DNA from: Burkholderiales bacterium | GTDB lineage: Bacteria; Pseudomonadota; Gammaproteobacteria; Burkholderiales; JAEUMW01 | Reading direction: 5' to 3' | Length of the DNA: 29,416 nt | Assembly (NCBI GenBank): GCA_016791285.1 | Contig: JAEUMX010000298.1 | Location: 1-29,416 of the forward strand | Shown: one piece after another, positions 27-22,588 of the stretch | Numbering within the stretch: the first letter of the stretch is position 1 | Layout: every line of letters begins with the position of its first letter | Notes under the pieces: model-generated | What the model saw: the letters and a program-made list of their open reading frames with translations, nothing else | What the model was told of the DNA's origin: nothing | Databases searched by the model: none | Program-made: the position numbers and the translations under genes

Positions 27-222
27 TCATGTCGCTCGTCCTCCACGAGGTCCGCGCCTACTTCCAGCATAGGCGACAAACCCGCTGATCGCTACCCCGG
101 GATTGGCGCTCGCCGTCATCGCCGTCCTGCCGTCCGGACCCTGCGCTTTCCAGCTCGACCCCGGAGTCCACCAGCCGTCCGACCAGGCGAAACGGTGCAT
201 CGTCGAAGAGCGGCGTCTGGTC
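27..222 (-). pseudogene. Frameshifted 3' remnant of a mesaconyl-C4-CoA hydratase (Meh)-like gene
   Basis: Directly after the mct stop, the minus strand encodes a piece that reads like the C-terminus of a FAS1/HTD2-type MaoC dehydratase, the family of mesaconyl-C4-CoA hydratase. One frame (222 to about 147) reads TPLFDDAPFRLVGRLVDSG then VELE. The next frame continues KAQGPDGRTAMTASA from about 150 to a TGA at 27-29. Removing one A from the AAA run at 147-149 joins the two into PLFDDAPFRLVGR...VELEAQGPDGRTAMTASA. This fits the usual family ending (FD..PF...GR...V.L.A...G...M.A.A). The roughly 230 N-terminal residues are absent. I infer a deletion plus a +1 frameshift. The family match is from memory, and an unrelated short ORF is possible. 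Confidence 0.45.
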
Positions 223-230
223 ATCGCGGT

Positions 231-1466
231 CTACTCGAGGTCGATCGGACCGGCCACGACACGCGCATCGCGCAACTCACCGATACGGCCCGACGACATA
301 CCGAGCACGTCGGCCAGAATCTCGTCGGTATGCTCGCCGAGCACGGGCGCGCGCCGCGGCACGTCGCGCGCGGCGGCGGCGAACTGTAGCGGCGACCCGG
401 GCACCAGATACGTGCCGATGCCGGGCTGTTCGATCATCGAGAAGAGCGGATTGGCGGTGGAGCAGCGGGGATCCTCCGCCACCATCTGCGCGAAGGTCTG
501 GTACGGCCCCCAGCACACTCCAGTGCCGTGAAAGACCTCAGCGATCGAGGCGACGCTGCGCTGCCGGAACCAGGGCGCGAGCACCGCCGTGATCGCCTCC
601 CGTGCCTGGAAGCGCTCACCCTCTCGCGCGAGATCGACCCCGAGCAGCGACCCGAGCGCCGCGAGCTTGTCCGCCAGGCCGGTGGTCTTCGAGAGCTCGT
701 CCCATTGCCGCCTCGTGATCGCGGCCACGTAGACCAGGCGCTCGTCCGCGGTCTCGAATTCGCACCCATAAGCGCCGTACAGATAATTGCCGGATGAGCG
801 CCGCTCGGTCCCGTTTACCTGCACCTCCGCGATGTAACCGAGATTGCCCGTCATCGCGAACGCGACGTCGGCGAGCGGCAGCTTGACGAGCTGTCCTTTC
901 CCCGTGAGGCGCCGGTGCCGCTCCGCCGCGAGGATGCCGAGCGCCGCGGTCAAGCCGGCGACCGCATCCCACGCCGGCAACACGTGGTTGACGGGATTCA
1001 CCGGCGCGCCCCCGTGCGCGGGGCCGGTCACGAAGGGAAAGCCGAGCGCGCAATTGACGGTGTAATCGACCGCGGAGCTGCCGTCCGGATTGCCGGTCAC
1101 GTTCATCATGATGAGATCGCTGCGACGCTGCCGCAGCGCGTCGTACCCGAGCCAGCCGGAGGCGGGAAAATTGGTGAGGAAGATGCCGTTACCTTCACCG
1201 GGCGCCGTGATCAGCGCAGCGATCAGCTCGCGCCCCTCGGCGCTGCGGGTGTCGACTGCGAGCGAACGCTTGCCCTTGTTGAGGCCGGCCCAGTAAAGAC
1301 TCTTGCCGCCCCCCGTCACCGGCCAGCGCCGCGCATCGAGCCCGCCTTCGAGCGGATCGAAGCGGATCACGTCCGCGCCCTGCTGCGCCAATGTCATGCC
1401 GCACAGCGGCGCCGCGACGAACGCCGCGCCCTCGACGATGCGCAGCCCTTTCAGTATCGCGTTCAT
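231..1466 (-). CDS. mct: Mesaconyl-CoA C1-C4 CoA transferase (class III CoA-transferase)
   Basis: A 411-residue class III (CaiB/BaiF, formyl-CoA transferase fold) protein. The Chloroflexus enzyme moves CoA within mesaconate, turning mesaconyl-C1-CoA into mesaconyl-C4-CoA in the second cycle of the 3-hydroxypropionate bi-cycle. The sequence shows the Mct-specific start (ILKGLRIVEGAAFVAAPL), LYWAGLNKGKRSLAVD near residues 57-72, and LPAWD with the likely catalytic Asp at about 167. It also has RLTGKGQLVKL and the late block EQPGIGTYLVPGSPL. Length equals the family norm of about 410. The ATG at 1466 has a good ribosome site (GAGAGGGGG). It is divergent from smtA with 88 bp between the starts, so a shared control region is likely. 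A degraded meh-like tail lies immediately downstream. Closer in motifs to Mct than to Smt or generic CaiB proteins. Confidence 0.9.
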   Translation of the reverse strand: MNAILKGLRIVEGAAFVAAPLCGMTLAQQGADVIRFDPLEGGLDARRWPVTGGGKSLYWAGLNKGKRSLAVDTRSAEGRELIAALITAPGEGNGIFLTNFPASGWLGYDALRQRRSDLIMMNVTGNPDGSSAVDYTVNCALGFPFVTGPAHGGAPVNPVNHVLPAWDAVAGLTAALGILAAERHRRLTGKGQLVKLPLADVAFAMTGNLGYIAEVQVNGTERRSSGNYLYGAYGCEFETADERLVYVAAITRRQWDELSKTTGLADKLAALGSLLGVDLAREGERFQAREAITAVLAPWFRQRSVASIAEVFHGTGVCWGPYQTFAQMVAEDPRCSTANPLFSMIEQPGIGTYLVPGSPLQFAAAARDVPRRAPVLGEHTDEILADVLGMSSGRIGELRDARVVAGPIDLE

Positions 1467-1554
1467 TTTCCCCCTCTCGTCATTGGATTTGCGCTATTCT
1501 GCCAGCGGAGCGCGCCGCCAGGCTCATCGTCGCGGCGCGAACAGGGATTACAAG
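1467..1554. promoter_or_regulatory. Divergent promoter region between mct and smtA
   Basis: These 88 bp separate the starts of mct (minus) and smtA (plus), so both promoters must lie here or inside the neighbouring coding ends. I could not find a convincing -35/-10 pair on either strand. A TATTCT box near 1494 lacks a well-spaced -35. The assignment rests on gene layout alone. Confidence 0.45.
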
Positions 1555-2859
1555 ATGTCAGCCAACGGCAACGATCAGGGCGCGGTCCCGACTGGGGAAG
1601 GGGCCGACAACCCCGACACGGCGGCACCCGCGTCCGCACACTCGAACGACGACACCACGAAACCGCTGCCGCTGTCCGGCATTCGCGTGATCGATGTCGG
1701 CACCTTTCTCGCGGGTCCCTACGCGGCCTCGATCATGGGCGAATACGGTGCCGAGGTGCTCAAGGTCGAGTACCCCATCGGCGGCGATCCGATGCGCCGC
1801 TTCGGCACCGCGACCAAGCGCCATGACGCGACGCTCGCGTGGCTGTCGGAAGCGCGCAACAAGAAGTCGGTCACGATCGATCTGCGGCGGCCCAAGGGCG
1901 TCGAGCTGTTCGTGAAGCTGGTGTCGAAATCCGACGTGCTGGTGGAGAACTTCCGCCCCGGTACGATGGAGGAATGGGGCCTCGGCTGGAACGAGCTCTC
2001 GGCCGCCAATCCGGGCCTCATCATGCTGCGCGTCTCCGGCTACGGGCAGACCGGCCCCTATCGCCGCCGTCCCGGTTTCGCGCATCTCGCGCACGGCTTC
2101 GGCGGCTTGTCCTACCTCGCCGGATACCCCAACGAAACGCCGGTCGTGCCGGGCATCGCGCCGCTCGGTGATTACATCTCGAGCCTCTACGGCGTGATCG
2201 GCATCATGCTCGCGCTGCGCCACAAGGAGAAGACCGGCGAAGGCCAGGTGATCGACGTCGGCATCTACGAGGCGGTGTTCCGGCAGATGGACGAGATGGC
2301 GACGGTCTACGGCCTGTCCGGCAAGGTGCGCGAACGCGAAGGCGCGGGCAGCTTCGTCGCCGTCCCGCATGGGCACTTCCGCACCAAGGACGGCCACTAC
2401 GTCGCGATCGCCTGCACCAACGACAAGATGTTCGAGCGCTTCGCGCAGGCAATGGAGCGCCCGGAACTCGCCTCCACCACGCTCTATGGCGAGCAGCGCA
2501 AGCGGCTTGCGGCGAGCGCCACGGTGATCGCGATCGTCAACGAGTGGGCAGCCGGGCTCACGTGCGACGAGCTGCTCGAACGCTGCATCGCCAAGCAGGT
2601 GCCCGTGGGCAAGTTGAACAGCATCGCCGACATCTTCGCCGATCCGCACTTCAAGGCGCGCGGCAATCTGCTCGAGATGGAAGAGGAAGCGCTCGGCAAG
2701 GTCGTGATTCCGGGCGTGGTGCCGACACTCTCCGAGACGCCGGGGCGGGTGACGAACCTCGGGCCGCGCCTGGGCGAGGCGACCTACGAGGTGATGCGCG
2801 AGCTGCTCGAACTCACCGCCCAGGAGATCGCCAGCCTGCGCCAGCAGCGCATCATCTGA
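1555..2859 (+). CDS. smtA: Succinyl-CoA:(S)-malate CoA-transferase, subunit A
   Basis: A 434-residue class III CoA-transferase. In Chloroflexus, SmtA and SmtB together move CoA from succinyl-CoA to malate, giving malyl-CoA for the lyase. Family marks are [20 protein letters not shown] near residues 39-58, [40 protein letters not shown], and APLGDY with the probable catalytic Asp at about 206. [19 protein letters not shown] and the SmtA-like PHGHF also appear. The first 35 residues are a polar Ala/Asp/Thr-rich tail, as in the longer SmtA subunit of the Chloroflexus pair. The ATG at 1555 was chosen because the frame upstream runs antisense through mct. It leads smtA-smtB-mcl-mch, with 10 bp to smtB. 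Subunit choice (A rather than B) rests on the longer N-terminus and remembered family motifs. Confidence 0.88.
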
Positions 2860-2869
2860 GGAAGAACGC

Positions 2870-4087
2870 ATGGATCACGAACCGTCCGAGAACCTGCCCC
2901 TGAGCGGCATCCGTGTCATCGATCTCGCGACCGTGGTCGCCGGCCCTTATTGTGCCGGCATACTCGGCGAGTTCGGTGCCGAAGTGCTGAAGGTCGAGCA
3001 TCCTGTGGGCGGCGACACCGGCAGGCACTTCGGGACGCCCGGGCCACGCGGCGACACGCTGGTGTGGGTCAGCGAAGGGCGCAACAAGAAGTCCGTGACC
3101 ATGGATCTGCACCGCGCCGAGGGCGTGCGGATGTTCAAGGACCTGATCGCGAAGTCCGACGTGCTGGTCGAAAACTTCCGTCCCGGCACGCTGGAGAAAT
3201 GGGGCATCGGTTGGGAGGTGCTGCACGCGATCAATCCGGGATTGATCATGCTGCGCGTGTCCGGCTACGGTCAGACCGGGCCATACAAGGATCGACCCGG
3301 CTTCGCCCGTGTCGCCCACGCCGTGGGCGGGCTCACCTATCTCGCCGGCATGCCGAAGGGCACGCCGGTCACCGCCGGATCGACCACGCTGGGGGATTAC
3401 TTCACCGGCCTCTACGGCTGCATCGGCGTGCTGCTCGCGCTGCGCTACAAGGAGAAGACCGGGCGCGGCCAGTACATCGACGCGGCGCTCTACGAATCGG
3501 TGTTCCGTTGCACCGACGAGCTCGCGCCGGCGTATGCGATGTACGGCACGGTGCAGGAGCGGCACGGACCGCACATGGAAAGCGGCTGCCCCTACGGCCA
3601 CTTTCCCACCCGCGACGGCAAGTGGGTGGCGATCGCGTGCACCACCGACAAGATGTTCGGACGGCTGGCGGAAGCGATGGGTCGACCGGAGCTTGCTTCG
3701 AGCAGCCTGTACGGCGAACAGAAGGCGCGCATCGCGAGCCGCACCGACGTGAACGAGATCGTGCGCGACTGGTGCGGCTCGATGCCGCGCGACGAGGTGC
3801 TCGCACGGTGCAACGCCGCCGGCGCACCCGCCGCGCCGCTCAACAACATCGCGGACATCTTCGGCGACCGGCAGTTTCACGCGCGCCGCAATCTCGTATC
3901 GATCGACGACGCCGCGCTCGGCGAGACGGTGATCGTGCCCAACGTCATTCCTCGGCTTTCGAAGACTCCTGGCCGCATCAAGCATCTCGGGCCGCGGCTC
4001 GGCCAGCACACCGACGAGGTGCTGAAGGATCTGCTCGGAATCTCCGACGCGGAGATCGAAGCGCTGCGCGCACAGCGCGTGATCTGA
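2870..4087 (+). CDS. smtB: Succinyl-CoA:(S)-malate CoA-transferase, subunit B
   Basis: A 405-residue class III CoA-transferase, clearly paralogous to the gene before it but without the polar N-terminal tail. It should form the second subunit of the heteromeric Smt enzyme that makes malyl-CoA and free succinate. Visible marks are [21 protein letters not shown] near residues 10-30, [38 protein letters not shown] with the likely catalytic Asp at about 176, [20 protein letters not shown], and [12 protein letters not shown]. Its length matches the known SmtB of about 405. The ribosome site GAGGAAG lies 5' of the ATG at 2870, only 10 bp after smtA, so the two are co-transcribed. The strong A/B similarity ([18 protein letters not shown] in both) indicates an old duplication. 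Confidence 0.88.
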
Positions 4088-4104
4088 AGCTTCCCGGAGC
4101 GACC

Positions 4105-5148
4105 ATGAAACTACCCGCGAACTTCTACCGGCCGCTTGCGATCGGCGCCCCGCTCCCCCTGCGCGAGCTGCCGGTGCGGCCGGAACGGATGATCCATTTC
4201 TTCCCGCCGCACGTGGAGAAGATCCGCGCCCGGGTACCGGAAATGGCAAGGCAGGTCGACGTGCTGTGCGGCAACCTGGAAGACGCGATCCCGATCGATG
4301 CCAAGGAAGCCGCGCGTGCCGGCTTCATCGCCGTGCTACGGAATACCGACTTCGGTGGCACTGCTCTGTGGACCCGTGTCAACGCGCTCAATAGCCCGTG
4401 GTTCCTCGACGACATGCTGGAGATCGTCGCCGCCGTCGGCAACAAGCTCGACGTGATCATGGTGCCGAAGGTCGAGGGGCCGTGGGACATCCACTTCGTC
4501 GATCAGTTGCTGGCGCAGCTCGAAGCGCGCTACAAGGTGACGAAGCCGATCCTCATCCACGCACTGCTCGAAACCGCGCAGGGCGTGAAGAATGTCGACG
4601 AGATCGCGTGTGCCAGTCCGCGCATGCACGGCATGAGTCTGGGTCCCGCCGATCTCGCAGCCTCGCGCGGGATGAAGACGACGCGTGTCGGCGGCGGTCA
4701 TCCCTTCTACGGCGTGCTCGCCGACCCGGTCGAGGGCCGGACCGAGCGCACGTTCTCGCAGCAGGACCTCTGGCACTACACCATATCGCGCATGGTCGAC
4801 GCCTGCGTGTCGTCGGGCATTCGGGCGTTCTACGGACCATTCGGCGACTTCGCCGACGAGGCGGGCTGCGAAGCGCAGTTTCGCAACGCGTTCCTCATGG
4901 GCTGCACCGGCACCTGGACCCTGCACCCGGGTCAAATCGCGATCGCGAAGCGCGTGTTCAGTCCGGACGTGAACGAAGTGCTGTTCGCGAAGCGGATTCT
5001 CGAAGCGATGCCCGACGGCGCCGGTGCGGTGCTGATCGACGGCAAGATGCAGGACGATGCCACCTGGAAGCAGGCGAAGGTGATCGTCGATCTCGCGCGG
5101 CTCGTCTCCGAGCGCGACCCGGAGCTCAGGCGCGCTTACGGGTTCTGA
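4105..5148 (+). CDS. mcl: (S)-Malyl-CoA / beta-methylmalyl-CoA / (S)-citramalyl-CoA lyase
   Basis: A 347-residue CitE-superfamily TIM-barrel lyase. The Chloroflexus homologue cleaves malyl-CoA to acetyl-CoA and glyoxylate, condenses glyoxylate with propionyl-CoA to beta-methylmalyl-CoA, and cleaves citramalyl-CoA to acetyl-CoA and pyruvate. The sequence shows [11 protein letters not shown] near the start, [56 protein letters not shown] (Glu at about 156) and [19 protein letters not shown] (Asp at about 183). The last two give the expected Mg2+ ligands. The tail [12 protein letters not shown] and [14 protein letters not shown] is typical of this bi-cycle clade, not of CitE of citrate lyase. 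The ATG at 4105 follows GGAGCG and lies 17 bp behind smtB. It is the hub of the cluster, and all its partners except Meh are beside it. Confidence 0.92.
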
Positions 5149-5154
5149 CCCATC

Positions 5155-6207
5155 GTGAAGACCGAGACCGGCAACTTCTTCGAGGATTTCCGGATCGGCC
5201 AGGAGATCGTCCACGCCACGCCGCGCACCGTGAGCGAAGGCGACGTTTCGCTTTACACCGCGCTCTACGGGTCCCGCTTCGCAGTGAACGCGTCGTCGCC
5301 CTTTGCGGCAGCGCTGGGCTTTCCGCGCGCGCCGGTGGACGACCTGCTCGCCTTCCACGTGGTGCTCGGCAAGACGGTGCCCGACATCTCGCTCAACGCC
5401 GTCGCCAACCTCGGCTACGCTCTCGGTCGCTTCGGCGAGCCTGTCTACCCCGGCGACACGATCTCGGCCGTCTCGACCGTGCTCGGCCTCAAACAGAACA
5501 AGGACGGCAAGGCAGGTGTCGTGTACGTGCGCTCGGTCGGCCGCAACCAGCGCGCGGAGATGGTCGTCGAATACTGCCGCTGGGTGATGGTGCGAACGCG
5601 CGATGCGGATGCCCCGGCGCCGGCGCCACGGGTTCCAGAGTTCCCGTCAGTGGTAGCGACCGATGACCTGCTCGTGCCGCGCGGACTGCGCCTCGATGCC
5701 TACGACGGCACACTGGCGGGTAGTCCGTACGGCTGGGAGGACTACGCGGTCGGCGAGCGCATCGATCACGTCGACGGCATGACGATCGAGCAATCCGACC
5801 ACATGATGGCGACGCGCCTCTACCAGAACACGGCGCGGGTGCACTTCAACCAGCACGTCGAGAAGGACGGGCGGTTCGGCCGCCGCATCGTCTACGGAGG
5901 CCACGTCATCAGCCTCGCACGCTCGCTGTCCTTCAACGGCCTCGCCAACGCCTTCAAGATCGTCGCGATCAACGGCGGACGCCACGTGGCCCCGACCTTC
6001 GCCGGCGACACGGTCTATGCGTGGTCGGAGGTCCTGGACAAAACGGCGCTGCCGACGCACAACGACGTCGGCGCGCTGAGGCTCAGGCTGGTCGCGACCA
6101 CGGATCGCGCGTGCACGGATTTTCCGTACAAGGCGGACGCTGAGCGCTACGACCCGTCGGTGGTGCTCGATTTCGACTACACGGTGCTGGTGCCGCGGCG
6201 GGGCTGA
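5155..6207 (+). CDS. mch: Mesaconyl-C1-CoA hydratase (beta-methylmalyl-CoA dehydratase)
   Basis: A 350-residue double-hotdog MaoC-like hydratase. Mch interconverts beta-methylmalyl-CoA and mesaconyl-C1-CoA, the step after Mcl condenses glyoxylate with propionyl-CoA. The sequence contains GNFFEDFRIGQEIVHATPRT near residues 5-24, SEGDVSLYTALYGSRFA, VPDISLNAVANLGYA, GKAGVVYVRSVGRNQR, and a second half with WEDYAVGERIDHVDGMTIEQ, YQNTARVHFNQH and RRIVYGGHVISLARSLSFNG. Length and motifs fit Mch of Chloroflexus and Rhodobacter, not the shorter Meh type. The start is a GTG at 5155, 6 bp after mcl, with no strong ribosome site, so translational coupling is likely. It converges on glgP, with only 3 bp between the two stop codons. 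Confidence 0.9.
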   Translation: MKTETGNFFEDFRIGQEIVHATPRTVSEGDVSLYTALYGSRFAVNASSPFAAALGFPRAPVDDLLAFHVVLGKTVPDISLNAVANLGYALGRFGEPVYPGDTISAVSTVLGLKQNKDGKAGVVYVRSVGRNQRAEMVVEYCRWVMVRTRDADAPAPAPRVPEFPSVVATDDLLVPRGLRLDAYDGTLAGSPYGWEDYAVGERIDHVDGMTIEQSDHMMATRLYQNTARVHFNQHVEKDGRFGRRIVYGGHVISLARSLSFNGLANAFKIVAINGGRHVAPTFAGDTVYAWSEVLDKTALPTHNDVGALRLRLVATTDRACTDFPYKADAERYDPSVVLDFDYTVLVPRRG

Positions 6208-6210
6208 ACC

Positions 6211-8718
6211 TCAGCTCTCGGCCAGCGGTTCCACCGGCTCCAGCCGCCAGATCTCCCGGTTGTACTCGTGCATCGTGCGGTCGGTCGAGAAGCGGCCGCT
6301 GGCAGCGGTGTTGAGGATACTCATGCGTGTCCAGCGCGTGCTGTCCCGGTAGGCCATCTCGGCCTGTCGTTGAGCTTCGAGGTAGCTGCGAAAGTCAGCC
6401 GCCGTCAGCCACGGGTCGCGCGGGTCGCGGATCGACCGGATCACTGCTTCGAACAAGCCCGGCTCGAACTGGCTGAAATGGCCGCTTTCGAGCATGTGCA
6501 TCACCCGCCGCAGATCCTCGTCGGCCTCGATGATCTCGTTCGGCTGGTAGTTCTCGCGCCGCACCGCCACCTCCTCGGCCGTCAAGCCGAACAGGAAGAA
6601 GTTGTCCGCGCCGACCGCCTCGCGGATCTCGATGTTGGCCCCGTCGTAGGTGCCGATCGTCACCGCGCCGTTCATCATGAACTTCATGTTGCCGGTGCCG
6701 GAGGCTTCCTTGCCGGCAGTGGAGATCTGCTCCGACAGATCGGTCGCCGCAGCGATGACCTCCATGGCGGAGACCCGGTAGTTCGGCAGGAACGCAACCC
6801 TGAGCCGATTGCCCAGGTCGCGGTCACTGTTGATGACGTGGGCGACATTGTTGATCAGTTTGATGATGCGCTTCGCGAGCCAGTAACCCGGAGCCGCCTT
6901 GCCGCCGAACAGCACGCAGCGCGGTGTCCAGTTTGCGCTATCACCGCGCTTGAGGCGATCGTAGAGATGGATCACGTGCAGCACGTTGAGGAGCTGGCGC
7001 TTGTACTCGTGAATCCGCTTCACCTGCACATCGAACATCGCACCCGGGTCGAAGTCGATCTTGCACTCCTCCGCCACCATCTCGGTGAGACGCCTCTTGT
7101 TCTCTTCCTTGACCTTCTGCCAGCGCGCGCGGAACGATTCCTTCTCGGCGTGCGGAGCGAGCCGCGCAAGCTGGTCGAGATCGGTGATCCAGCCGCCACC
7201 TATGGTCTGGCTGATGAGCTCGGCGAGCTTTGGATTGGCCCAGGCGATCCAGCGCCGCGGTGTGACACCGTTGGTCTTGTTATTGAACTTCTCCGGCCAC
7301 ATCTCGTAGAAGTCGCGGAACAGCCCCTCGCGCAGGAGCCGCGAGTGCAACTCCGCCACGCCGTTCACGGAAAAGCTGCCGACGATGGCGAGGTGCGCCA
7401 TGCGCACCTCCTTTTCGGACCCTTCCTCGATCAGCGACATGCGGCGCAACCGCTCCCAGTCCCCCGGCCACCGGCGCGCGATCTCCGTGACGAATGTCGC
7501 ATTGATCTCGTAGATGATCTCGAGCAGGCGCGGCAGCAGCCGCTCGAACATCCGCACCGGCCACCGTTCGAGCGCCTCCGGCAGGAGCGTGTGATTGGTG
7601 TAGGCGATGGTGCGTGTCGTGATGCCCCACGCGCGGTCCCACTCCAGCCCGTTCTCGTCGACCAGCAGGCGCATGAGCTCGGCCACGGCAATGCTCGGAT
7701 GCGTGTCGTTCAGCTGGAAGATGCTCTTCTCGTCGAACCGGGAGAAGTCCTCGCCGTGCATGCTCTTCCACCGCCGGATGACGTCCTGCAGCGTCGCCGA
7801 GACCAGGAAGTACTGCTGGCGCAGCCGCAGCTCCTTGCCCATCTCGGTCACGTCGTTCGGGTAGAGCAGCATGCTGATGTTCTCGGCGGCGTTCTTCTCC
7901 AGCACCGAGCCCGAGTAGTCGCCGGCGTTGAACTGCCCCAGATCGAAGACGTCCCGGGCCTGCGCGCGCCACAGGCGCAGCGTGTTCACCGTGCCGTTGT
8001 GGTAGCCCGGAACCGGCGTGTCGTAAGGCACCGCGAGCACGTCGTTGGTCTCGACCCAGCGGTGGATCGTCCTGCCATCGCCGTTCGTCCAGCGTTCCGT
8101 ACGGCCGCCGAACTTGATGGTCACGATGAACTCCGGCCGCTCGAGCTCCCACGGGTTGCCGTCGATGAGCCAGCGCTCGGGCTCCTCGACCTGCTCTCCG
8201 TTCTTGATCGTCTGGCGGAAGATGCCGTACTCGTAACGGATGCCGTAGCCCATCACCGGCAACTGCAGGGTCGCGCAGCTGTCGAGAAAGCAGGCGGCGA
8301 GACGCCCCAGGCCGCCGTTGCCGAGGCCGGCATCGTGCTCGAGCTCGATCATGTCCTCGAGGCGCAGGTCGAGTTCCTTCAACGCATCGCGCACGGCCTG
8401 TTGAATGCCGAGGTTGAGCAGTGCGTTGCCGAGCGTGCGCCCCATCAGGAACTCCATCGACAGGTAGTAGGCGCGCCGGCAGTCGTTCTCGCGATACGAG
8501 TAGTGGGTGTTCTTCCACATGACCATGAGCCGGTCGCGCAGTGACATGGCGAGCGCCTCATACAGGTGGAAAGCGTACTTGGAGTGAATGTCGCACCCCA
8601 ACGTGTGGTTGAAGTGCCGTCTGAAATCCGCCGCGATGCTGCGGGCGTCGAGACCGAGGGTGGGCAGATCCCGCAGCAATGGGGTGGGGATCGCCTCACG
8701 TTCCGTGATGGCAGCCAT
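6211..8718 (-). CDS. glgP: Glycogen/alpha-glucan phosphorylase
   Basis: An 835-residue GT35 phosphorylase that releases glucose 1-phosphate from glycogen with inorganic phosphate, using pyridoxal phosphate. The PLP-binding motif EASGTGNMKFMMNG is present, with the Schiff-base Lys at about 679, followed by TIGTYDGANIE. Other blocks are YYLSMEFLMGRTLGNALLNL, DAGLGNGGLGRLAACFLDS, QLNDTHPSIAVAELMR and RIHEYKRQLLN. Length fits bacterial GlgP (about 800-850). The ATG at 8718 was chosen over a longer reading to 8784 because GGGAGGAAACC stands directly before it. It is the only glycogen gene here and is a single-gene unit. Divergent from the methylmalonyl-CoA decarboxylase operon and convergent with mch. 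MalP (maltodextrin phosphorylase) is the same family and cannot be ruled out on substrate. Confidence 0.93.
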   Translation of the reverse strand: MAAITEREAIPTPLLRDLPTLGLDARSIAADFRRHFNHTLGCDIHSKYAFHLYEALAMSLRDRLMVMWKNTHYSYRENDCRRAYYLSMEFLMGRTLGNALLNLGIQQAVRDALKELDLRLEDMIELEHDAGLGNGGLGRLAACFLDSCATLQLPVMGYGIRYEYGIFRQTIKNGEQVEEPERWLIDGNPWELERPEFIVTIKFGGRTERWTNGDGRTIHRWVETNDVLAVPYDTPVPGYHNGTVNTLRLWRAQARDVFDLGQFNAGDYSGSVLEKNAAENISMLLYPNDVTEMGKELRLRQQYFLVSATLQDVIRRWKSMHGEDFSRFDEKSIFQLNDTHPSIAVAELMRLLVDENGLEWDRAWGITTRTIAYTNHTLLPEALERWPVRMFERLLPRLLEIIYEINATFVTEIARRWPGDWERLRRMSLIEEGSEKEVRMAHLAIVGSFSVNGVAELHSRLLREGLFRDFYEMWPEKFNNKTNGVTPRRWIAWANPKLAELISQTIGGGWITDLDQLARLAPHAEKESFRARWQKVKEENKRRLTEMVAEECKIDFDPGAMFDVQVKRIHEYKRQLLNVLHVIHLYDRLKRGDSANWTPRCVLFGGKAAPGYWLAKRIIKLINNVAHVINSDRDLGNRLRVAFLPNYRVSAMEVIAAATDLSEQISTAGKEASGTGNMKFMMNGAVTIGTYDGANIEIREAVGADNFFLFGLTAEEVAVRRENYQPNEIIEADEDLRRVMHMLESGHFSQFEPGLFEAVIRSIRDPRDPWLTAADFRSYLEAQRQAEMAYRDSTRWTRMSILNTAASGRFSTDRTMHEYNREIWRLEPVEPLAES

Positions 8719-8985
8719 GGTTTCCTCCCGATTTCTTATAGTGGCCGGGGGTAACCGTACCACAGACCGAACGTCGCCGACCACATCAATGTATCAGCAT
8801 GCCGCGGCGTCGCTGCATTGAATGGCTCACCTGTATGCAAAGTTGCGCTATCATCATCGGCGCGCAAACGCCCGAACGCACGCAGGCGGGAAAACATCGC
8901 CACCGTGCACCAGCGGGAATCGACGGGCCCAAGGCCCGCCGCTGTCGACGCGGGCGTCGGGCAAACGCAGCAACGGGGGGAAAAG
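8719..8985. promoter_or_regulatory. Divergent control region between glgP and mmdA
   Basis: These 267 bp lie between two divergent starts. On the minus strand a TATAAG box sits about 20 bp before the glgP ATG, probably too close to the ribosome site to be its -10. On the plus strand a TATCAT near 8850 has no good -35. A small hairpin, GGGCC-CAA-GGCCC, lies at 8925-8937 in the mmdA leader. No operator could be assigned. The role follows from gene layout. Confidence 0.4.
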
Positions 8986-10539
8986 ATGGCACTACGACCA
9001 GAGTCGTTGGAGCAGTTGCGCAAGCGGCGCGGCGCGGCGCAAGCGGGTGGGGGCGAGAACAAGATCAACGAACGGCGCGCCAAGGGGCTGCTCTCCGCGC
9101 GCGACCGCGTCGAGGCACTGTTCCAGTCCGGGACCTTTCAGGAAATCGGGATGCACGTGCGCCACAGCGGGCGGCATTTCGGGCTGGAGAAGAAGGAATT
9201 CCCGGCCGACGGAGTGATCACCGGCACCGGTTACGTCAACGGCAAGCTCGTCGCCGCGATCAGCCAGGATTTCACCGTGGCTGCCGGCACACTCGGCAAG
9301 ATGCACGCACACAAGATCGTGGAGCTCATGAAGCTCGCGATCAAGACCGGCACTCCGTTCGTGGCCTTCAAGGACTCCGGCGGCGCGCGCATTCAGGAAG
9401 CGGTCGACGCCCTCTCCGGCTACGGCAACGTCTTCTACCACAACGTGCTGATGTCGGGCGTCGTGCCGCAGATCGCGGTGGTGTGCGGCCCCTGCGCGGG
9501 TGGCGCCTCCTACTCCCCGGCGCTCATGGACTTCATCATCATGACGCGCCAGAACGCGCAGATGTTCATCACCGGTCCCGAGGTCATCAAGGCGGTGACC
9601 GGGCGCGCGACGACCATGGCCGAAGTGGGCAGCGCCGAGATGCACGCAACAGTGAGCGGCAACGTGCACTTCGTCGCCGACGACGATCGCCACGCCATCC
9701 AGATCGTGCACAAGCTGCTCTCGTATCTGCCGTCCAACAACACGGAGGACCCCCCTCATCATCTGAGCCCGGACCTCACGCTCGCGCACGACGAGTCGAT
9801 GAACAGCCTGATCCCAGACGATTCATCGGAGCCCATGGACGTGCGCAAGATCATCAGCCACCTCGTGGACGATGGCCAGTTGCTCGAGGTTCACGCCGGT
9901 TGGGCGCGCAACATCATCGTCGGCTTCGCCCGGATCGAGGGCATGGTGATCGGTCTTGTGGCGAATCAGCCAACGGAGATGGCCGGCGCCCTGGACATCC
10001 ACGCTTCGGACAAGGGCGCGCGCTTCATCCGCACCTGCAACGTCTTCAACATTCCGATCGTGACGCTGGTCGACGTGCCGGGCTTCCTGCCCGGCGTCGA
10101 ACAGGAGCGCAGCGGCATCATCCGCCACGGCGCCAAGATGCTGTTCGCCTACGCCTCGTGCACCACCCCGAAGATCACGCTGATCCTGCGCAAGGCCTAT
10201 GGCGGATCGTATCTCGCGATGTGCAGTCAGGAGATGGGGGCGGATTTCGTGTACGCGTGGCCCAACGCCGAGATCGCGGTGATGGGCGCGGAGGGCGCCG
10301 TGAACATCCTCTATCGCAAGGAGCTCTCCGACGCAGCCGACCGCAAGGCGAAGCACGCCGAGCTGGTGACCGGCTACCGCACCGAGTTCGCCTCACCGTA
10401 TCTCTCCGCCTCGCACGGCTACATCACCGACGTGATCGAGCCCGCCGAGTCGCGTTCGGTGATCGCGCTGTCGCTGCGCAAGGTGCTCAACAAACGGGAG
10501 CTGCGGCCCGCCAAGAAGCACGGCAACATTCCACTCTAG
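8986..10539 (+). CDS. mmdA: Methylmalonyl-CoA decarboxylase, carboxyltransferase (alpha) subunit
   Basis: A 517-residue acyl-CoA carboxyltransferase of the PccB/MmdA family. It moves the carboxyl group from an acyl-CoA, probably (S)-methylmalonyl-CoA, to biotin on the carrier subunit. Crotonase-fold marks are NERRAKGLLSARDRVEALF near the N-terminus, [75 protein letters not shown], and the usual end KKHGNIPL. The ATG at 8986 has GGGGGGAAAAG in front; the frame is open upstream but reads as low-complexity. The next genes are an OadG-like membrane protein, a biotin carrier and an OadB-like pump in the mmdA-D-C-B order known from Propionigenium and Veillonella. That favours a Na+-pumping decarboxylase over a carboxylase. 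Substrate is inferred; malonyl- or glutaconyl-CoA are less likely. Confidence 0.85.
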   Translation: MALRPESLEQLRKRRGAAQAGGGENKINERRAKGLLSARDRVEALFQSGTFQEIGMHVRHSGRHFGLEKKEFPADGVITGTGYVNGKLVAAISQDFTVAAGTLGKMHAHKIVELMKLAIKTGTPFVAFKDSGGARIQEAVDALSGYGNVFYHNVLMSGVVPQIAVVCGPCAGGASYSPALMDFIIMTRQNAQMFITGPEVIKAVTGRATTMAEVGSAEMHATVSGNVHFVADDDRHAIQIVHKLLSYLPSNNTEDPPHHLSPDLTLAHDESMNSLIPDDSSEPMDVRKIISHLVDDGQLLEVHAGWARNIIVGFARIEGMVIGLVANQPTEMAGALDIHASDKGARFIRTCNVFNIPIVTLVDVPGFLPGVEQERSGIIRHGAKMLFAYASCTTPKITLILRKAYGGSYLAMCSQEMGADFVYAWPNAEIAVMGAEGAVNILYRKELSDAADRKAKHAELVTGYRTEFASPYLSASHGYITDVIEPAESRSVIALSLRKVLNKRELRPAKKHGNIPL

Positions 10540-10574
10540 TCGCGGTCAGCGGCCCAACAGGGAGGCAGCAGACA

Positions 10575-10904
10575 ATGTCCGACATGATCATGAAGACGCT
10601 CTGGATGTATGGCCTCGCCATCGTGGTGTCGATGGTCGTCGCGGTCGTCATCAAGCTGATTGTGGTGATCCTGGGTGCACTCGAACGCAAGCCCGCGGCA
10701 GCATCGAAGCCGGTGCCCGCTCCCGCTGCCCCCGCGCTCGATCTCCTTGGCGACCACGTGGCCGCGATCTCGGCAGCGGTCTATTCCGTGCTCGGCGCAC
10801 ATCGCATCGTCCATATCGAAGAGCACCGCGATCCCGGCTGGGTCGTGGAAGGAAGACTGGCCCACCACACCTCGCACGCGGTCTCGCACCGCCCGAAGCA
10901 ATAG
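10575..10904 (+). CDS. mmdD: Sodium-pump decarboxylase small membrane subunit (OadG/MmdD-like)
   Basis: A 109-residue protein with one N-terminal membrane span at about residues 10-35 (a Val/Ile/Met-rich stretch), then an Ala/Pro-rich linker (about 42-56) and a soluble tail with AAISAAVYSVLGAHRIVHI. This layout fits the OadG/MmdD family, which holds the carboxyltransferase subunit on the membrane pump and helps assemble the complex. Similarity in this family is low, so the call leans on topology, size and position between mmdA and the biotin carrier. The ATG at 10575 is 36 bp after mmdA and follows GGAGGCAGCAGACA. The His-rich C-terminal end (LAHHTSHAVSHR) could bind a metal, as reported for Zn2+ in OadG; this is inference. 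Confidence 0.72.
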   Translation: MSDMIMKTLWMYGLAIVVSMVVAVVIKLIVVILGALERKPAAASKPVPAPAAPALDLLGDHVAAISAAVYSVLGAHRIVHIEEHRDPGWVVEGRLAHHTSHAVSHRPKQ

Positions 10905-10938
10905 CGAAAAAGCTTCAGAAGAAAGGGAGAGAAAAATC

Positions 10939-11328
10939 ATGGAGAAGAAGTTCCGGATCACGGTCGACGGCAAGCAGTACAGCGTAACGGTGGAGGACCT
11001 CACCGAGGGACCCAGCCTGCTCTACCCCACGCCCGGCAGCATGACCATTCCGAGCCCGCAGCCAGCGGCACCCGCCGCCGCGCCGGCGCCCGCTGCAGCC
11101 AAGGCCGCTGCGGGCGCGGGGGACGTGGTGAGCACGCTGGGCGGTGTCGTGGAGTCGATCCCGGTTTCGGTCGGACAGGCAGTAAACCAGGGCGACAAGG
11201 TCGTGATCATCGAAGCGATGAAGATGAAGACGCCCATGATTGCCCACATGGCCGGCAAGATCACCGCGATCCACGTCAAGGCGGGGGATGCCGTCGAGGC
11301 CGGTCAGGCGCTGGTCAGTATCGGGTAA
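10939..11328 (+). CDS. mmdC: Biotin carboxyl carrier subunit of the decarboxylase
   Basis: A 129-residue biotin carrier. The N-terminal 25 residues (KKFRITVDGKQYSVTVEDL) form the short strand region seen in OadA-tail and MmdC proteins. An Ala/Pro-rich flexible linker follows (about 38-60), then a biotinyl-lipoyl domain with IIEAMKMKTP, in which Lys at about 95 should carry biotin. The linker lets biotin swing between the MmdA carboxyltransferase site and the MmdB membrane site. The ATG at 10939 has AAGGGAGAGAAAAATC upstream. It lies 34 bp after mmdD and 12 bp before mmdB. No biotin carboxylase subunit is in this operon, which supports decarboxylase function. The separate pccA gene carries its own biotin domain. 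Confidence 0.88.
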   Translation: MEKKFRITVDGKQYSVTVEDLTEGPSLLYPTPGSMTIPSPQPAAPAAAPAPAAAKAAAGAGDVVSTLGGVVESIPVSVGQAVNQGDKVVIIEAMKMKTPMIAHMAGKITAIHVKAGDAVEAGQALVSIG

Positions 11329-11340
11329 GCGGGAGGCGCC

Positions 11341-12546
11341 ATGGAAGGCATCCACCTGCTCGACATCTTCCAGGGCATCGCGACGCTGGCCGCGTCCGAG
11401 CCAAAGATTTTCTGGGGCCGGATCGGTCTGATTTTTCTCGGTTTCGCGCTGATCTATCTCGGCAAGAAGGGGGTGCTGGAAGCGCTGCTGATGATCCCGA
11501 TGGGTCTCGGCATGGCTGCCGTCAACGCGGGCGTGATGTTCTTCGAGGGCAACAAGCCCGGCACGCTCTTCGTCGACCCGCTGGTCGAGGGCACCGACGC
11601 CACCATGACGATCCTGCAGATCGACTGGCTGCAGCCGATCTACACCTTCATGTTCAGCAACGGTCTCATCGCCGTGCTCGTGTTCATGGGGATCGGTGTG
11701 CTGCTGGACGTGGGTTTCGTCATGGCGCGGCCGTTCCAGAGCATGATCCTCGCCCTGTTCGCCGAACTCGGCACGGTGGCTACCCTGCCGATCGCCGTCT
11801 GGCTCGGCATGACCGAGCGCGAGGCAGCCTCGGTCGCTCTCATCGGAGGCGCCGACGGCCCGATGGTGCTGTTCGCCTCGCTGATTCTCGCCAAGGATCT
11901 GTTCGTCCCGATCACGGTAGTGGGCTACCTGTATCTAGGCCTCTGCTACGGCGGCTATCCGTATCTCATAAAGATGCTGATTCCCGAGCGGTTGCGCGCG
12001 ATCCCGATGCCGATGGGAGACGTCAAGCGGATCACGTCCGGGCAGAAGCTCGTCTTCGCCGTGGTGGCCTGCACGCTGCTGTGCCTGCTGTTCCCGGTGG
12101 CGGCGCCGCTCTTCCTGGCGCTTTTCATCGGTGTGGCGGTACGCGAGAGCGGGCTCCTCAACTTCCAGAACCTCTTGAGCGAGACCGTTCTCTACGGCGC
12201 GACCTTCTTCCTCGGCCTGACACTCGGGATCCTGTGCGAGGCGAACACGATCCTGAGCCCGGTGGTCCTCAAGCTGCTGCTGTTGGGCGTCGTGGCGCTC
12301 ACCCTGGCGGCCCTCGGCGGCATCCTCGGCGGTTATGTTCTGTACTTCTGGTACAAGGGCAAGTACAACCCCATGATCGGCGTCGCCGGCGTGAGCTGCG
12401 TGCCGACGACCGCGAAGATCGTGCAGAAGATCGCGACCGAGGTGGCGCCGGGCGTGGTGATCATGCCTCATGCTTTGGGCGCCAACATCAGCGGCGTCAT
12501 CACCACCGCCATCCTCACCGGCATTTTCGTGGCGGTGTTGCGCTAA
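11341..12546 (+). CDS. mmdB: Na+-translocating decarboxylase beta subunit (MmdB/OadB family)
   Basis: A 401-residue polytopic membrane protein with many hydrophobic segments. It decarboxylates carboxybiotin and couples this to Na+ export across the cytoplasmic membrane. The family signature ALIGGADGP is present, with Asp at about 172 corresponding to the Na+-binding Asp203 of Klebsiella OadB. The C-terminal half has YKGKYNPMIGVAGVSCVP and HALGANISGVITTA, matching the conserved NPLIG-AGVS-VP and GANV-GVI blocks. Length fits the family (about 375-430). The ATG at 11341 is preceded by GCGGGAGGCGCC. It is the fourth gene of the mmd operon. I cannot tell methylmalonyl-CoA from other acyl-CoA pumps by this subunit alone, because the beta subunits are very alike. 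Confidence 0.9.
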   Translation: MEGIHLLDIFQGIATLAASEPKIFWGRIGLIFLGFALIYLGKKGVLEALLMIPMGLGMAAVNAGVMFFEGNKPGTLFVDPLVEGTDATMTILQIDWLQPIYTFMFSNGLIAVLVFMGIGVLLDVGFVMARPFQSMILALFAELGTVATLPIAVWLGMTEREAASVALIGGADGPMVLFASLILAKDLFVPITVVGYLYLGLCYGGYPYLIKMLIPERLRAIPMPMGDVKRITSGQKLVFAVVACTLLCLLFPVAAPLFLALFIGVAVRESGLLNFQNLLSETVLYGATFFLGLTLGILCEANTILSPVVLKLLLLGVVALTLAALGGILGGYVLYFWYKGKYNPMIGVAGVSCVPTTAKIVQKIATEVAPGVVIMPHALGANISGVITTAILTGIFVAVLR

Positions 12547-12594
12547 GGACGACGCGATCGCGCCGGCAACACGACAACACAAGAGGAACTCCGC

Positions 12595-13026
12595 ATGGCT
12601 GACTTCGACAAGCAGGCGGTCGTTGCCGTCTTGAACCGCATCCTCGAGCACGAGCTCGCCGGCGTGGTGCGCTACACCCATTTCTCTTTCATGGTGTTCG
12701 GCCACAGCCGCATTCCCATCATCTCGTGGCTGAACAAGCAGGCCGACGAGTCCCTGCTGCACGCGCGCGAAGCCGGCGAGATGATAACGCTGCTGATCGC
12801 GCAGCCTTCGCTTCGCGTCGGTGCGCTGCTCGACGCGCACGAGCCGGACATCGATGCGCTGCTGCGTACGTCCCTGGACAGCGAGCGCGCGGCGGTCGCC
12901 CTGTACCGCGAGCTGCTCGATCTGGTCCGCGACAAGTCGGTGCTGCTCGAGGAGTATGCGAGAAGGATGATCGTCGGCGAAGAACTGCACGTCGGCGAAG
13001 TGGAGAAGATGCTGCGCCGGTCATGA
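12595..13026 (+). CDS. Bacterioferritin-like diiron protein
   Basis: A 143-residue four-helix ferritin-like protein. The spacing of likely iron ligands resembles bacterioferritin: Glu18 in LEHELAGVVRYTHF with Tyr27, Glu52 and His56 in DESLLHAREAGEM, Glu97 in DSERAAVALYRELL, and Glu129/130 with His132 in IVGEELHVGEVEKML. The Met that binds haem in true bacterioferritin (next to the second-helix Glu) is Ser here, and that Glu-His spacing is one residue longer. Haem binding is therefore doubtful. Possible roles are iron storage, ferroxidase or oxidative protection. The ATG at 12595 follows AAGAGGAACTCCGC, 48 bp after mmdB on the same strand, so it probably shares the transcript. Why an iron protein sits with a Na+ pump is unclear. 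Confidence 0.75.
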   Translation: MADFDKQAVVAVLNRILEHELAGVVRYTHFSFMVFGHSRIPIISWLNKQADESLLHAREAGEMITLLIAQPSLRVGALLDAHEPDIDALLRTSLDSERAAVALYRELLDLVRDKSVLLEEYARRMIVGEELHVGEVEKMLRRS

Positions 13027-13037
13027 GCGTCAGGGAG

Positions 13038-13058
13038 GTCGCGCCGTGGCGGCGCGAC
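13038..13058 (+). other. Hairpin between ferritin-like and VOC genes
   Basis: A perfect 9-bp inverted repeat, GTCGCGCCG-TGG-CGGCGCGAC, lies in the 63 bp between the two genes. No T-run follows, so it is more likely an RNA stability or processing element than a terminator. The downstream gene has its own good ribosome site. Confidence 0.4.
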
Positions 13059-13089
13059 GGCAATCGACACAACAACCGAGGAGGTATTC

Positions 13090-13557
13090 ATGAGCGACAG
13101 ACCTTTCCGCATTCTTGGCCTGCAGCAGATCGCCATCGGCGGCGCCGACAAGGGGCGGCTGCGCCGGCTGTGGGTCGACACGCTGGGGGTGCCGGTCACC
13201 GGCAATTACCGCAGCGAACGCGAGAACGTCGACGAGGACATTCTCGCGCTGGGCACGGGTCCGACCAAGGTCGAGATCGATCTCATGCAGCCGGTCGACA
13301 TCGCCAAGAAGCCGGCGGTGCACGAGACCCCGCTCAATCACATCGGGCTGTGGGTGGACGATCTGCCGAAGGCGGTGGAATGGCTGACCGCGAACGGCAT
13401 GCGCTTCGCCCCGGGTGGCATCCGCAAGGGCGCCGCCGGCTTCGACATCTGCTTCGTGCACCCGAAGGGCAACGACCAGTTTCCGATCTCGGGCGAAGGC
13501 GTCTTGATCGAGCTGGTGCAGGCGCCGCCCGAGGTGGTCGCCACTCTCGGCGCCTGA
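13090..13557 (+). CDS. VOC/glyoxalase-family protein, candidate methylmalonyl-CoA epimerase
   Basis: A 155-residue protein of two beta-alpha-beta-beta-beta modules, the vicinal-oxygen-chelate fold. The modules start at [10 protein letters not shown] (about 9-18) and [15 protein letters not shown] (about 82-96). A Glu in [10 protein letters not shown] (about 140) can serve as the last metal ligand. Methylmalonyl-CoA epimerase normally uses His, Gln, His, Glu. Here the first His position reads Gln (QQIAIG) and the second reads Glu (TKVEIDLM), while His84 and the C-terminal Glu are kept. Position after the mmd operon and facing pccA strongly suggests an epimerase of methylmalonyl-CoA, which would link PccAB, mutase and Mmd. 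The changed ligands leave room for another VOC function. The ATG at 13090 has GAGGAGGTATTC before it. Confidence 0.6.
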
Positions 13558-13567
13558 GGGCTACCTA

Positions 13568-13592
13568 GCGGCCGGCGGGTGACGCCGGCCGC
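13568..13592. terminator. Bidirectional hairpin between convergent VOC gene and pccA
   Basis: A perfect 10-bp GC-only stem, GCGGCCGGCG-GGTGA-CGCCGGCCGC, lies in the 42 bp between the two convergent stop codons. There is no clear T-run on either side, so termination efficiency is uncertain, but its place suits a shared terminator. Confidence 0.6.
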
Positions 13593-13599
13593 GCTGGAC

Positions 13600-15597
<1,998 letters not shown>

Positions 15598-15727
15598 GGT
15601 TTTGTCCGGGATGGGGATGATGGTCGGGGATGACTTCGACCCCCTGTGTGCCCCCTCGTTTCAAGGTCCGAGAGGGCGACAGCGGCAGTTCAACGCCGCA
15701 CTCTTGCCCCTGCTCCCTTCTCCCTTG

Positions 15728-17260
<1,533 letters not shown>

Positions 17261-17326
17261 AGATGTTGTGCCTTGTTCTCTTGTGGGTGTGAGCGGTTCT
17301 CGCTCCTCCACGTGAACGGTCGCGAT

Positions 17327-17344
17327 CGGTCATCGCGATGACCG
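17327..17344. promoter_or_regulatory. 18-bp perfect palindrome upstream of pccB, candidate operator
   Basis: CGGTCATCGCGATGACCG reads the same on both strands and lies 67 bp before the pccB start, in the 213-bp gap behind hprK. TCGCGAT also occurs just beside it. A perfect 18-mer palindrome in a promoter-sized gap suggests a dimeric regulator site. The regulator is unknown. Confidence 0.4.
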
Positions 17345-17473
17345 CGCCGCTCATTCCCTGACTTCCCCTGCACCCATGACGTTATCACGCCGCACGGGAG
17401 ACCTCAAGCCGACGGGGCAGATCGAGCGTGAAAAAGCCGGCCGCGAGCCGCGGGCAACGGGGCGCGCGAGATC

Positions 17474-18433: not shown

Positions 18434-18452
18434 CGCGAGGCAACCGGGTGCG

Positions 18453-20330: not shown

Positions 20331-20412
20331 CGCTGCACCTCCCGATGGCAGTTCGGAATCAGTCATTCTGTTTCCGGCGCCCGCAAAAGTCCAATGAAGA
20401 TATTGCAGCGCA

Positions 20413-21393: not shown

Positions 21394-21651
21394 TGTTCAT
21401 CCTCCCCACGCGCTTGCACGCGATGCCGCCGCGCCGGCGCAAACGTCCGCGATTCGCGGTAAGATAGCGACCGCCTCGAATTGATCGCATCGTCGACAGG
21501 GTCGGGGCGCTTGTCAACAAGTTGCATGCGCACGGGAGGAGAGCCCGGGCCGTTCGCGCATGGGAGTTATGCGAGTCGCCGACCGAGTGAACGACACCCT
21601 GGTCGCGATCGCATGGCAGCGGGGCTCAACACCGAGACGGGAGAAGGAAGC
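21394..21651. promoter_or_regulatory. Divergent control region between patatin-like gene and SDR operon
   Basis: These 258 bp separate two divergent operons. A 13-bp inverted repeat, CCGCGA-T-TCGCGG, lies at 21447-21459, about 55 bp before the patatin-like start. Next to it a TATCTT on the minus strand could be a -10, but its -35 is weak. A short CTTGT-CA-ACAAG repeat lies near 21510. No coding sequence is convincing here. Assignment is by layout. Confidence 0.4.
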
Positions 21652-22446: not shown

Positions 22447-22451
22447 GGTTC

Positions 22452-22499
22452 GGCAGCCGTCGGGCCGGGCGCGACGCAGCGCGTCCCGGCCGGTCTGCC
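22452..22499 (+). other. Long GC-rich hairpin between SDR and thiolase genes
   Basis: The arms GGCCGGG-CGCG (22463-22473) and CGCG-T-CCCGGCC (22480-22491) pair with one bulged T around a 6-nt loop. Outer GGCAG/CTGCC arms lie at 22452 and 22495. There is no T-run. It could attenuate or protect the SDR transcript, or be a weak terminator before a separate thiolase promoter. Confidence 0.4.
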
Positions 22500-22588
22500 A
22501 TTCCTGGTCATTGACGTCCAAGCGCGGGTCCGACTGCCTATCCCGAGGTGGCGGATGCGGTCGTCCCGCATCGAGGGAGGATTCACTC

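Follow-up and report, generated by a model that had tools for sequence, protein, structure and literature searches.

The lineage of Roseiflexus has the 3-hydroxypropionate bi-cycle, and Accumulibacter stores polyhydroxyalkanoate (PHA) and glycogen. In the part of PMC6593406 on which we draw, partial sets of bi-cycle genes are described from more clades than Accumulibacter and Kentron, with a role proposed for the Kentron set similar to that set out below; the corresponding part of PMC9802188 describes bi-cycle sets in Burkholderiales. Working on a 29,416-nucleotide stretch of bacterial DNA (contig JAEUMX010000298.1, assembly GCA_016791285.1; ‘the window’ denotes its full length), we find the genes mct, smtA, smtB, mcl and mch packed at positions 231–6207; a genuine bi-cycle-type glyoxylate/propionyl-CoA module in a bacterium of Accumulibacter’s order, most likely serving co-assimilation tied to storage metabolism. 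Such modules are a known kind, as far as those two sources extend; the new details are the gene order, the lineage of Mct and a stump of meh, no literature search having been aimed at the stump itself. The module and its immediate surroundings are as follows.

102–219, minus strand: stump of meh, about 40 C-terminal residues in two frames with the first ~240 codons gone (tblastn)
231–1466, minus strand: mct (TIGR04253, 561.6 bits against a cut-off of 725; solved structures 8apq, E 7e-160, and 7xkg, E 1e-160)
1467–1554: divergent intergenic region between mct and smtA, 88 bp from gene end to gene end; putative promoter region
1555–2859, plus strand: smtA (PF02515, E 8e-114 in the longer frame; 68–77% identical to Chloroflexota loci, 98% in the relative G479)
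2870–4087, plus strand: smtB (PF02515, E 2e-118; 73–76% to Chloroflexota loci, 96% in G479)
4105–5148, plus strand: mcl (6kin, E 6e-197; 4l7z, E 1e-196; 78–83% to Chloroflexota loci)
5155–6207, plus strand: mch (4e3e, E 3e-165; 8hgn, E 4e-140)

The mct gene is thus divergent from a tight smtA-smtB-mcl-mch operon, with intergenic gaps of 10 bp (smtA-smtB), 17 bp (smtB-mcl) and 6 bp (mcl-mch). All five reading frames are backed by third-position GC content, with gene starts slightly corrected from the first reading, and all five products lie close to Chloroflexus/Roseiflexus-type enzymes. The proteins belong to the Pfam families CoA-transferase family III, HpcH/HpaI and MaoC. No NCBIfam cut-off is reached by Mct, SmtA, SmtB, Mch or Mcl, which match related models only (those near Mcl being distant), so the gene names are putative assignments from the closest characterised relatives and from gene context. 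In the search of solved structures Mcl matches 6kin over its full length; other relatives of the same families (formyl-CoA transferases, the malyl-CoA lyase 4l9y, an Rv0216-like protein) score much lower. Mct shows the intramolecular-transferase signature: it retains Leu43, Arg47 and the catalytic Asp (Asp167 here, 165 in C. aurantiacus), with Ser in place of the C. aurantiacus Arg104, residue numbers following the part of PMC9813914 that we used.

Compared with three cluster-bearing Chloroflexota loci (L028, L048 and L079), identity is 68–77% for SmtA, 73–76% for SmtB, 57–60% for Mct, 78–83% for Mcl (177 amino acids only in L079) and 70–72% for Mch (two loci); a fourth, L022, has an Mct at 63% without the other four genes. 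Membership of the general CaiB, CitE or MaoC clades, named beforehand in an earlier note on this DNA as what would overturn its view, can be set aside: distant paralogues stand at ~21–43% identity, against 57–98% for the window’s kin. Of the expected parts of the module, sequence comparison finds Mct, the SmtA and SmtB pair, a Chloroflexus-type Mcl and Mch, with Meh present as a stump in the window and as a start cut off by the contig end in G479. The earlier note’s description of five closely packed genes with strong matches is borne out by coordinates, solved structures and locus comparisons, and its view that all steps from succinyl-CoA plus malate to mesaconyl-C4-CoA are encoded by the Pfam, related NCBIfam and structure matches.

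We propose, with a probability of about 0.62, that the locus represents the glyoxylate-assimilation half of the bi-cycle, retained without the CO2-fixing half, and that it would balance propionyl-CoA, malate and acetyl-CoA during glycogen and PHA turnover. SmtAB would transfer CoA from succinyl-CoA to malate; Mcl would split malyl-CoA into acetyl-CoA and glyoxylate and then join glyoxylate to propionyl-CoA; Mch would dehydrate the resulting beta-methylmalyl-CoA to mesaconyl-C1-CoA; Mct would shift the CoA to C4; and Meh followed by Mcl would yield acetyl-CoA and pyruvate. In sum, malate, propionyl-CoA and succinyl-CoA give two acetyl-CoA, pyruvate and succinate with no loss of carbon. Propionyl-CoA supply would be set by the neighbouring carboxylase, epimerase-like and decarboxylase genes. 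We infer both the enzyme activities and the direction of flux, as well as either another hydratase covering the Meh step or a stump that is an assembly flaw.

The autotrophic markers Mcr (two short-chain dehydrogenase/reductase (SDR) halves, 1258 amino acids) and Pcs (ligase, hydratase and reductase parts, 1878 amino acids), recognised by their domain make-up, are both absent from the window’s genes. Searched in 23 chosen genomes at E<=1e-40, Mcr is present in six (G523, G013, G848, G003, G014 and G009) and Pcs gives matches in eight: a long single match in G013, G523, G848, G003, G009 and G002, a split one in G014 and a short ligase-like one in G011. Neither was found at that threshold in G479, a relative of the window but a fragmented metagenome-assembled genome (MAG), a result that supports co-assimilation rather than CO2 fixation, as the earlier note had argued. 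All four Accumulibacter genomes searched (G010, G022, G846 and G847) likewise hold mct-mcl-mch without Mcr or Pcs.

G523, drawn from the order that holds Accumulibacter G010 and G479, bears on two further readings. It shares the window’s mct | smtA-smtB-mcl-mch backbone and has, all on one contig, mcr-mct divergent from smtA-smtB-mcl-mch and then pcs and meh; the stops within its meh and pcs matches are the 3' ends of open frames (396 and 1946 codons, respectively), so both genes look intact. A full autotrophic bi-cycle in the window’s host, with mcr and pcs elsewhere in the genome, would fit this arrangement, as it would the bi-cycle sets of the Burkholderiales families Ga0077523 and Burkholderiaceae in the part of PMC9802188 to hand; we nevertheless rate it as rather improbable, as neither gene was found in G479 at E<=1e-40 and the position next to mct, occupied by mcr in G523, is taken by meh in G479 and by the stump in the window. 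Since mcr, pcs and meh share the cluster contig in G523, loss from an autotrophic ancestor is possible. In its fullest form this would be a cluster caught in loss: a G523-like ancestor (mcr-mct | smtA-smtB-mcl-mch plus pcs and meh), a G479/window lineage from which mcr and pcs disappeared while the module was retained for propionyl-CoA and storage metabolism, and a present strain that lost meh too; the remaining enzymes must then channel mesaconyl-C4-CoA, or only glyoxylate, elsewhere. We regard this sequence of events as unlikely.

Two observations on the markers stand apart. Loci L124 (G013) and L127/L133 (G523) are superclusters: in each genome a single contig unites mcr, pcs, meh, smtAB, mct, mcl and mch, the gene order differing between the two. 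In MAGs of Rhodopila (G003 and G848; L003, L004 and L130), a purple non-sulfur genus, the Pcs and Mcr genes are adjacent, with mct, mch and mcl too; a full bi-cycle there is possible. SmtAB was not seen in the vicinity of mct, the part covered for it.

G479 itself is a MAG drawn from the order of Accumulibacter G010 and picked up through its SmtA at 98% identity. We take this order to be Burkholderiales, in line with the naming of PMC9802188. One of its contigs (C79, 13,227 bases) is collinear with window positions 10411–23598, from biotin carrier to thiolase, at 84.5% DNA identity, from which we conclude that the host is, by sequence, a relative of G479 at about genus level; a second (C110, 4103 bases) covers 3850 bp of the mct-smtA-smtB stretch (window 221–4070) at 93.8% identity, the Mct, SmtA and SmtB proteins being 95.6–98.4% identical. 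A proteobacterial host, as the earlier note supposed, is thereby upheld. The view of G479 as a near-conspecific, suggested by the 93.8% stretch, was dropped given 84.5% elsewhere; conservation, recombination or misbinning may account for the closer match of the short module contig. The closest named HPr kinases belong to a Betaproteobacteria MAG (85%) and a Rhodocyclaceae MAG (68%). An alphaproteobacterial host, suggested by the best Mct locus (L001, 71%), was ruled out, the glycogen phosphorylase (GlgP) and PccB of that locus’s genome, G001, standing at 52% and 74% against a collinear 13.2 kb in G479. A host in the order of Contendobacter G011, which we take to be Competibacterales, is unsupported: PccB is 84–85% identical in G008 and G011 against 96% in G479, and GlgP, found at E<=1e-200 in 35 of 40 genomes of that order, gives best matches of 62–70% and one of 51%, none of which stands out. 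Among 122 G479 contigs (908,130 of ~3.4 million bases) E. coli AceA, AceB and ScpA had no match at 1e-20, a sample of about one quarter that is uninformative on absence.

The phylogenies bear on the source that the earlier note had called plausible, a Chloroflexus-like donor. In the Mct tree the window and G479 join a proteobacterial lineage (G001, G523, Rhodopila, Magnetococcales, Chromatiaceae and others; support 100/99), apart from a Chloroflexota/Accumulibacter group; forcing the window’s Mct into the latter is rejected by the approximately unbiased (AU) test (p-AU 2.4e-6), the tested groups having been chosen after the trees were seen, so that this and the other p values are indicative only. 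SmtB places the window with Accumulibacter, Competibacterales and G523 rather than with Chloroflexota (93/95), Mcl places it between the two sets, and the Mch and SmtA trees are poorly resolved for it. In none of the five trees is the window nested within Chloroflexota (Mch and SmtA being unresolved), and the proposed transfer accordingly finds no backing. The trees are unrooted and so give no direction of transfer; they agree with the statement, in the part of PMC6593406 we used, that Chloroflexota probably gained these genes by transfer too. A mosaic operon, with mct and mcl from different lineages, was rejected as unproven. The Mcl tree already contains the Mct split as one side of a branch (90/87), and Mch is compatible with that split (p-AU 0.19). 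The one arrangement that Mcl rejects is the window paired with G001 (p-AU 0.003), and Mct tolerates G001 among the Chloroflexota set (p-AU 0.28).

Two things had escaped the earlier note: the stump of meh, and the genes for propionyl-CoA, glycogen and PHA that lie next to the cluster. The Meh family (~290 amino acids) shows a weak FAS1-dehydratase Pfam match and no NCBIfam match, and in many loci adjoins mct or lies divergently upstream of smtA; we presume the name from gene context and from the Chloroflexus cluster. Eight relatives chosen from a family of 16 served as tblastn queries. The match begins 11 bases past the mct stop, directly after the gene, and consists of two minus-strand pieces, 219–139 and 155–102, which together make up the last ~40 residues of Meh in two frames (best combined E 4e-8 with the first 400 nt as subject, 2.5e-6 with the whole window). 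Seven of the eight queries reach E<=0.002 in the 400-nt subject and four reach E<=1e-3 against the whole window; the matches of L030 and L052 are weak, while L037 gives nothing meaningful. Because Meh C-terminal codons follow mct at once, a gene merely cut off by the window’s end was ruled out. In G479 the DNA match continues beyond the mct stop and ends one base after the meh start codon, and beyond that point lie residues matching 10–89 of the L005 Meh, as far as the contig end; an intact-looking start. The window may therefore have lost ~240 meh codons and suffered a further frameshift, or its end may be misassembled.

This is the evidence on which a broken or decaying module would rest: with meh deleted, carbon would stop at mesaconyl-C4-CoA, and the rest of the module would be on its way to loss or in use for the SmtAB/Mcl (glyoxylate) and Mch steps alone. 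That the deletion begins one base past the meh start codon, that a separate frameshift marks the remnant and that G479 has an intact-looking start all favour such decay; set against this, all five remaining genes have open frames, Mct, SmtA and SmtB are still 95.6–98.4% identical to G479, and the defect lies within 220 bp of the window’s end, assembly flaws being common near sequence ends. Decay of this kind seems to us unlikely.

Several points weigh against the retained glyoxylate-assimilation half that we prefer. The stump breaks the module in the window as sequenced, and the sole other Meh-like gene of G479 (42%, contig C97) sits on a very long branch beside thioesterase and HMGL-like genes and so may be another enzyme. 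The 4.1-kb module contig of G479, at 93.8% as against 84.5% for the other, could be misbinned from a closer strain or recombined, and the genome is fragmented (20 contigs examined, 2.0–22.4 kb). Mcr and Pcs were not found in the Roseiflexus MAG G007 either, in a lineage that has the bi-cycle, so that absence from a MAG is weak evidence. Finally, methylmalonyl-CoA mutase is missing from the annotated window genes, no whole-genome search having been made.

Beyond the cluster, propionyl-CoA, glycogen and PHA genes are spread across 21 kb:

6211–8784, minus strand: glycogen phosphorylase (TIGR02093, 1182 bits, above cut-off)
8818–10539, plus strand: MmdA-like acyl-CoA carboxyltransferase of a putative Na+ decarboxylase (PF01039, E 1e-174; TIGR01117, 732.6 bits, under the cut-off of 998.8)
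10675–11328, plus strand: biotin carrier protein (PF00364, E 6e-15)
11341–12546, plus strand: Na+-transporting carboxybiotin decarboxylase beta subunit (PF03977, E 6e-104; TIGR03136, 506 bits, under the cut-off of 596.9; 93.5% in G479)
13090–13557, plus strand: methylmalonyl-CoA epimerase-like protein (PF13669, E 1e-32; TIGR03081, 46.3 bits, under the cut-off of 115; 96.8% in G479)
13600–15597, minus strand: propionyl-CoA carboxylase (PCC) alpha, with biotin carboxylase, PCC_BT and biotinyl domains (PF02786, PF18140, PF00364; 92.8% in G479)
15728–17311, minus strand: PCC beta (PF01039, E 4e-203; 96% in G479, 85% to Contendobacter MAG G011)
17474–18433, minus strand: HPr kinase/phosphorylase (TIGR00679, 319 bits, above cut-off)
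18453–20366, minus strand: PHA synthase, class I PhaC (PF07167, PF12551)
25425–27683, minus strand: class III PHA synthase, PhaC and PhaE (PF09712, E 2.5e-34; PF00561, PF07167)

Reading rightward, a ferritin-like gene lies between the beta subunit and the epimerase-like gene; patatin, SDR, thiolase (with an OB-fold partner) and sulfotransferase genes follow class I PhaC; and the right end holds class III PhaC with PhaE, an Hcp-like gene and a formaldehyde-activating enzyme. As the decarboxylase and epimerase scores lie under curated cut-offs, their exact substrates can only be predicted. A complete bi-cycle also needs PCC and methylmalonyl-CoA epimerase; the window has PCC alpha and beta and the epimerase-like gene that scores under the NCBIfam cut-off. 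The proximity of PHA synthases and propionyl-CoA genes would also suit a module running in reverse, from acetyl-CoA and pyruvate to propionyl-CoA and glyoxylate, as an anaplerotic route for acetate and a source of propionyl-CoA for 3-hydroxyvalerate-containing PHA, Mcl and the transferases being reversible in principle; this direction would require Meh as well, and we hold it to be quite unlikely.

Several features of this flank are recorded for their own sake. The decarboxylase (8818–12546) combines a beta subunit most like malonate-type MadB with an MmdA-like carboxyltransferase. PHA synthases of two classes (I, and III with PhaE) lie within ~9 kb (18453–27683), the Hcp-like gene adjoins the formaldehyde-activating enzyme (28063–29220), and the sulfotransferase (24001–25334) occupies the stretch of lowest GC content (0.595, as against 0.62–0.68 elsewhere). 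The HPr kinase, next to the PHA synthase and PCC genes, is full-length and 28–34% identical to nine matches in 17 genomes (Contendobacter, Accumulibacter, Chromatiaceae and others); G479 carries two such genes, one of this type (84.5%) and another at 33%.

To place the module among its relatives, a scan with the Mct alignment recovered at least 585 Mct relatives in the genome collection, of which 80 loci were retained (flanks of up to 10 kb per side, several cut by contig ends; identity thresholds 60–70%). At least one of SmtA, SmtB and bi-cycle-type Mcl or Mch lies near Mct in 20 of the 80, and all five genes in five (L028, L048, L049, L072 and L080); since the other 60 show none, Mct by itself marks the bi-cycle poorly. 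SmtA is rare: at E<=1e-120 in 5 of 369 genomes of G008’s class (above 70% identity in two, G008 included) and at E<=1e-150 in 3 of 399 genomes of G010’s order, G010 included. Meh relatives at E<=1e-20, paralogues included, were found in 21 of 22 genomes examined. Among the 120 best-listed SmtA relatives are proteins of Planctomycetaceae or Isosphaeraceae (77–82%) and of Rhodospirillales (78–80%). The earlier note was right to name Accumulibacter and Kentron as holders of partial clusters, yet understated their spread, as these SmtA relatives and the parts consulted of PMC6593406 and PMC9802188 indicate.

Gene orders vary. The arrangement meh(-) | smtA-smtB-mct-mcl-mch(+) occurs in L028 (Roseiflexus), L048 (Chloroflexi), L049 (Accumulibacter) and L072 (Burkholderiaceae); the Chloroflexaceae MAG G014 has mcl-mch-meh on one strand; L005–L009 have mcl-mct-meh in series (L008 cut at its left end) with no SmtAB nearby. 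G479 has smtB-smtA divergent from mct-meh; the window shares this layout, with mcl-mch following smtB and only the stump left of meh. In L001 smtA and mct are divergent with an IS1-like transposase gene (under cut-off) between them and mch-mcl on another contig, and in the Chromatiaceae locus L006 a glycogen phosphorylase (67%) also stands beside mcl-mct-meh-mch.

The 60 loci with no SmtA, SmtB or bi-cycle-type Mcl or Mch in their flanks (L051, L052, L020, L025 and others) have features of their own: 10 of them carry a methylsuccinyl-CoA dehydrogenase-like gene, 11 a Meh relative and four both; the L051 protein matches 6es9, which we take to be methylsuccinyl-CoA dehydrogenase, at E 2e-197, and crotonyl-CoA carboxylase/reductase is above cut-off in 16 of 45 Mct genomes. 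Together these hint at an ethylmalonyl-CoA route exiting via Mct and Meh to acetyl-CoA and pyruvate. In L005, L006, L007 and L009 a second Mcl-like lyase (38–43%), possibly a separate citramalyl-CoA lyase, lies directly upstream of the 77–79% Mcl, and a ~650-amino-acid FadX-like CoA-transferase neighbours mct in L003; in L005 and L007–L009 it lies either between meh and mch or immediately past meh.

Set beside the systems already described, the window has the same five enzymes as the glyoxylate-assimilation cluster of Chloroflexus and Roseiflexus (57–83% identity), with smtA-smtB and mcl-mch adjacent and in the same order. In the Chloroflexota loci L028 and L048 mct lies within the operon, with meh opposite, whereas in the window mct stands outside it, divergently upstream, followed by the meh stump; and unlike the Chloroflexota bi-cycle, neither the window nor G479 yielded mcr or pcs. 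Partial clusters of Accumulibacter, Kentron, Thiosymbion and Competibacter also do without Mcr and Pcs, to judge from the part of PMC6593406 available and the four Accumulibacter genomes searched here, and storage of PHA and glycogen is described there for Kentron too. The window differs from the Accumulibacter loci in order (smtA-smtB-mct-mcl-mch in L049 and L080; mct-mcl-mch with meh(-) alongside in L070 and L076) and in its Mct, which is of the Chloroflexota type in Accumulibacter-type partial clusters and of another lineage here. To the few clusters outside Chloroflexota it adds a host in Accumulibacter’s order, a second gene order, in which mct stands apart from the operon, and a second lineage of Mct. 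A third comparison is with the Burkholderiales clusters (the part of PMC9802188 cited above; G523 and G013). G523, of the same order as Accumulibacter, shares the backbone with its divergent mct, but in both G523 and G013 the contig that bears the cluster also has mcr, pcs and meh, mcr and pcs having been found in neither G479 nor the window. Comparing G523, which has mcr and pcs, with G479, where neither was found, offers a way to ask whether a propionyl-CoA/glyoxylate module acquired CO2 fixation or is what remained after its loss.

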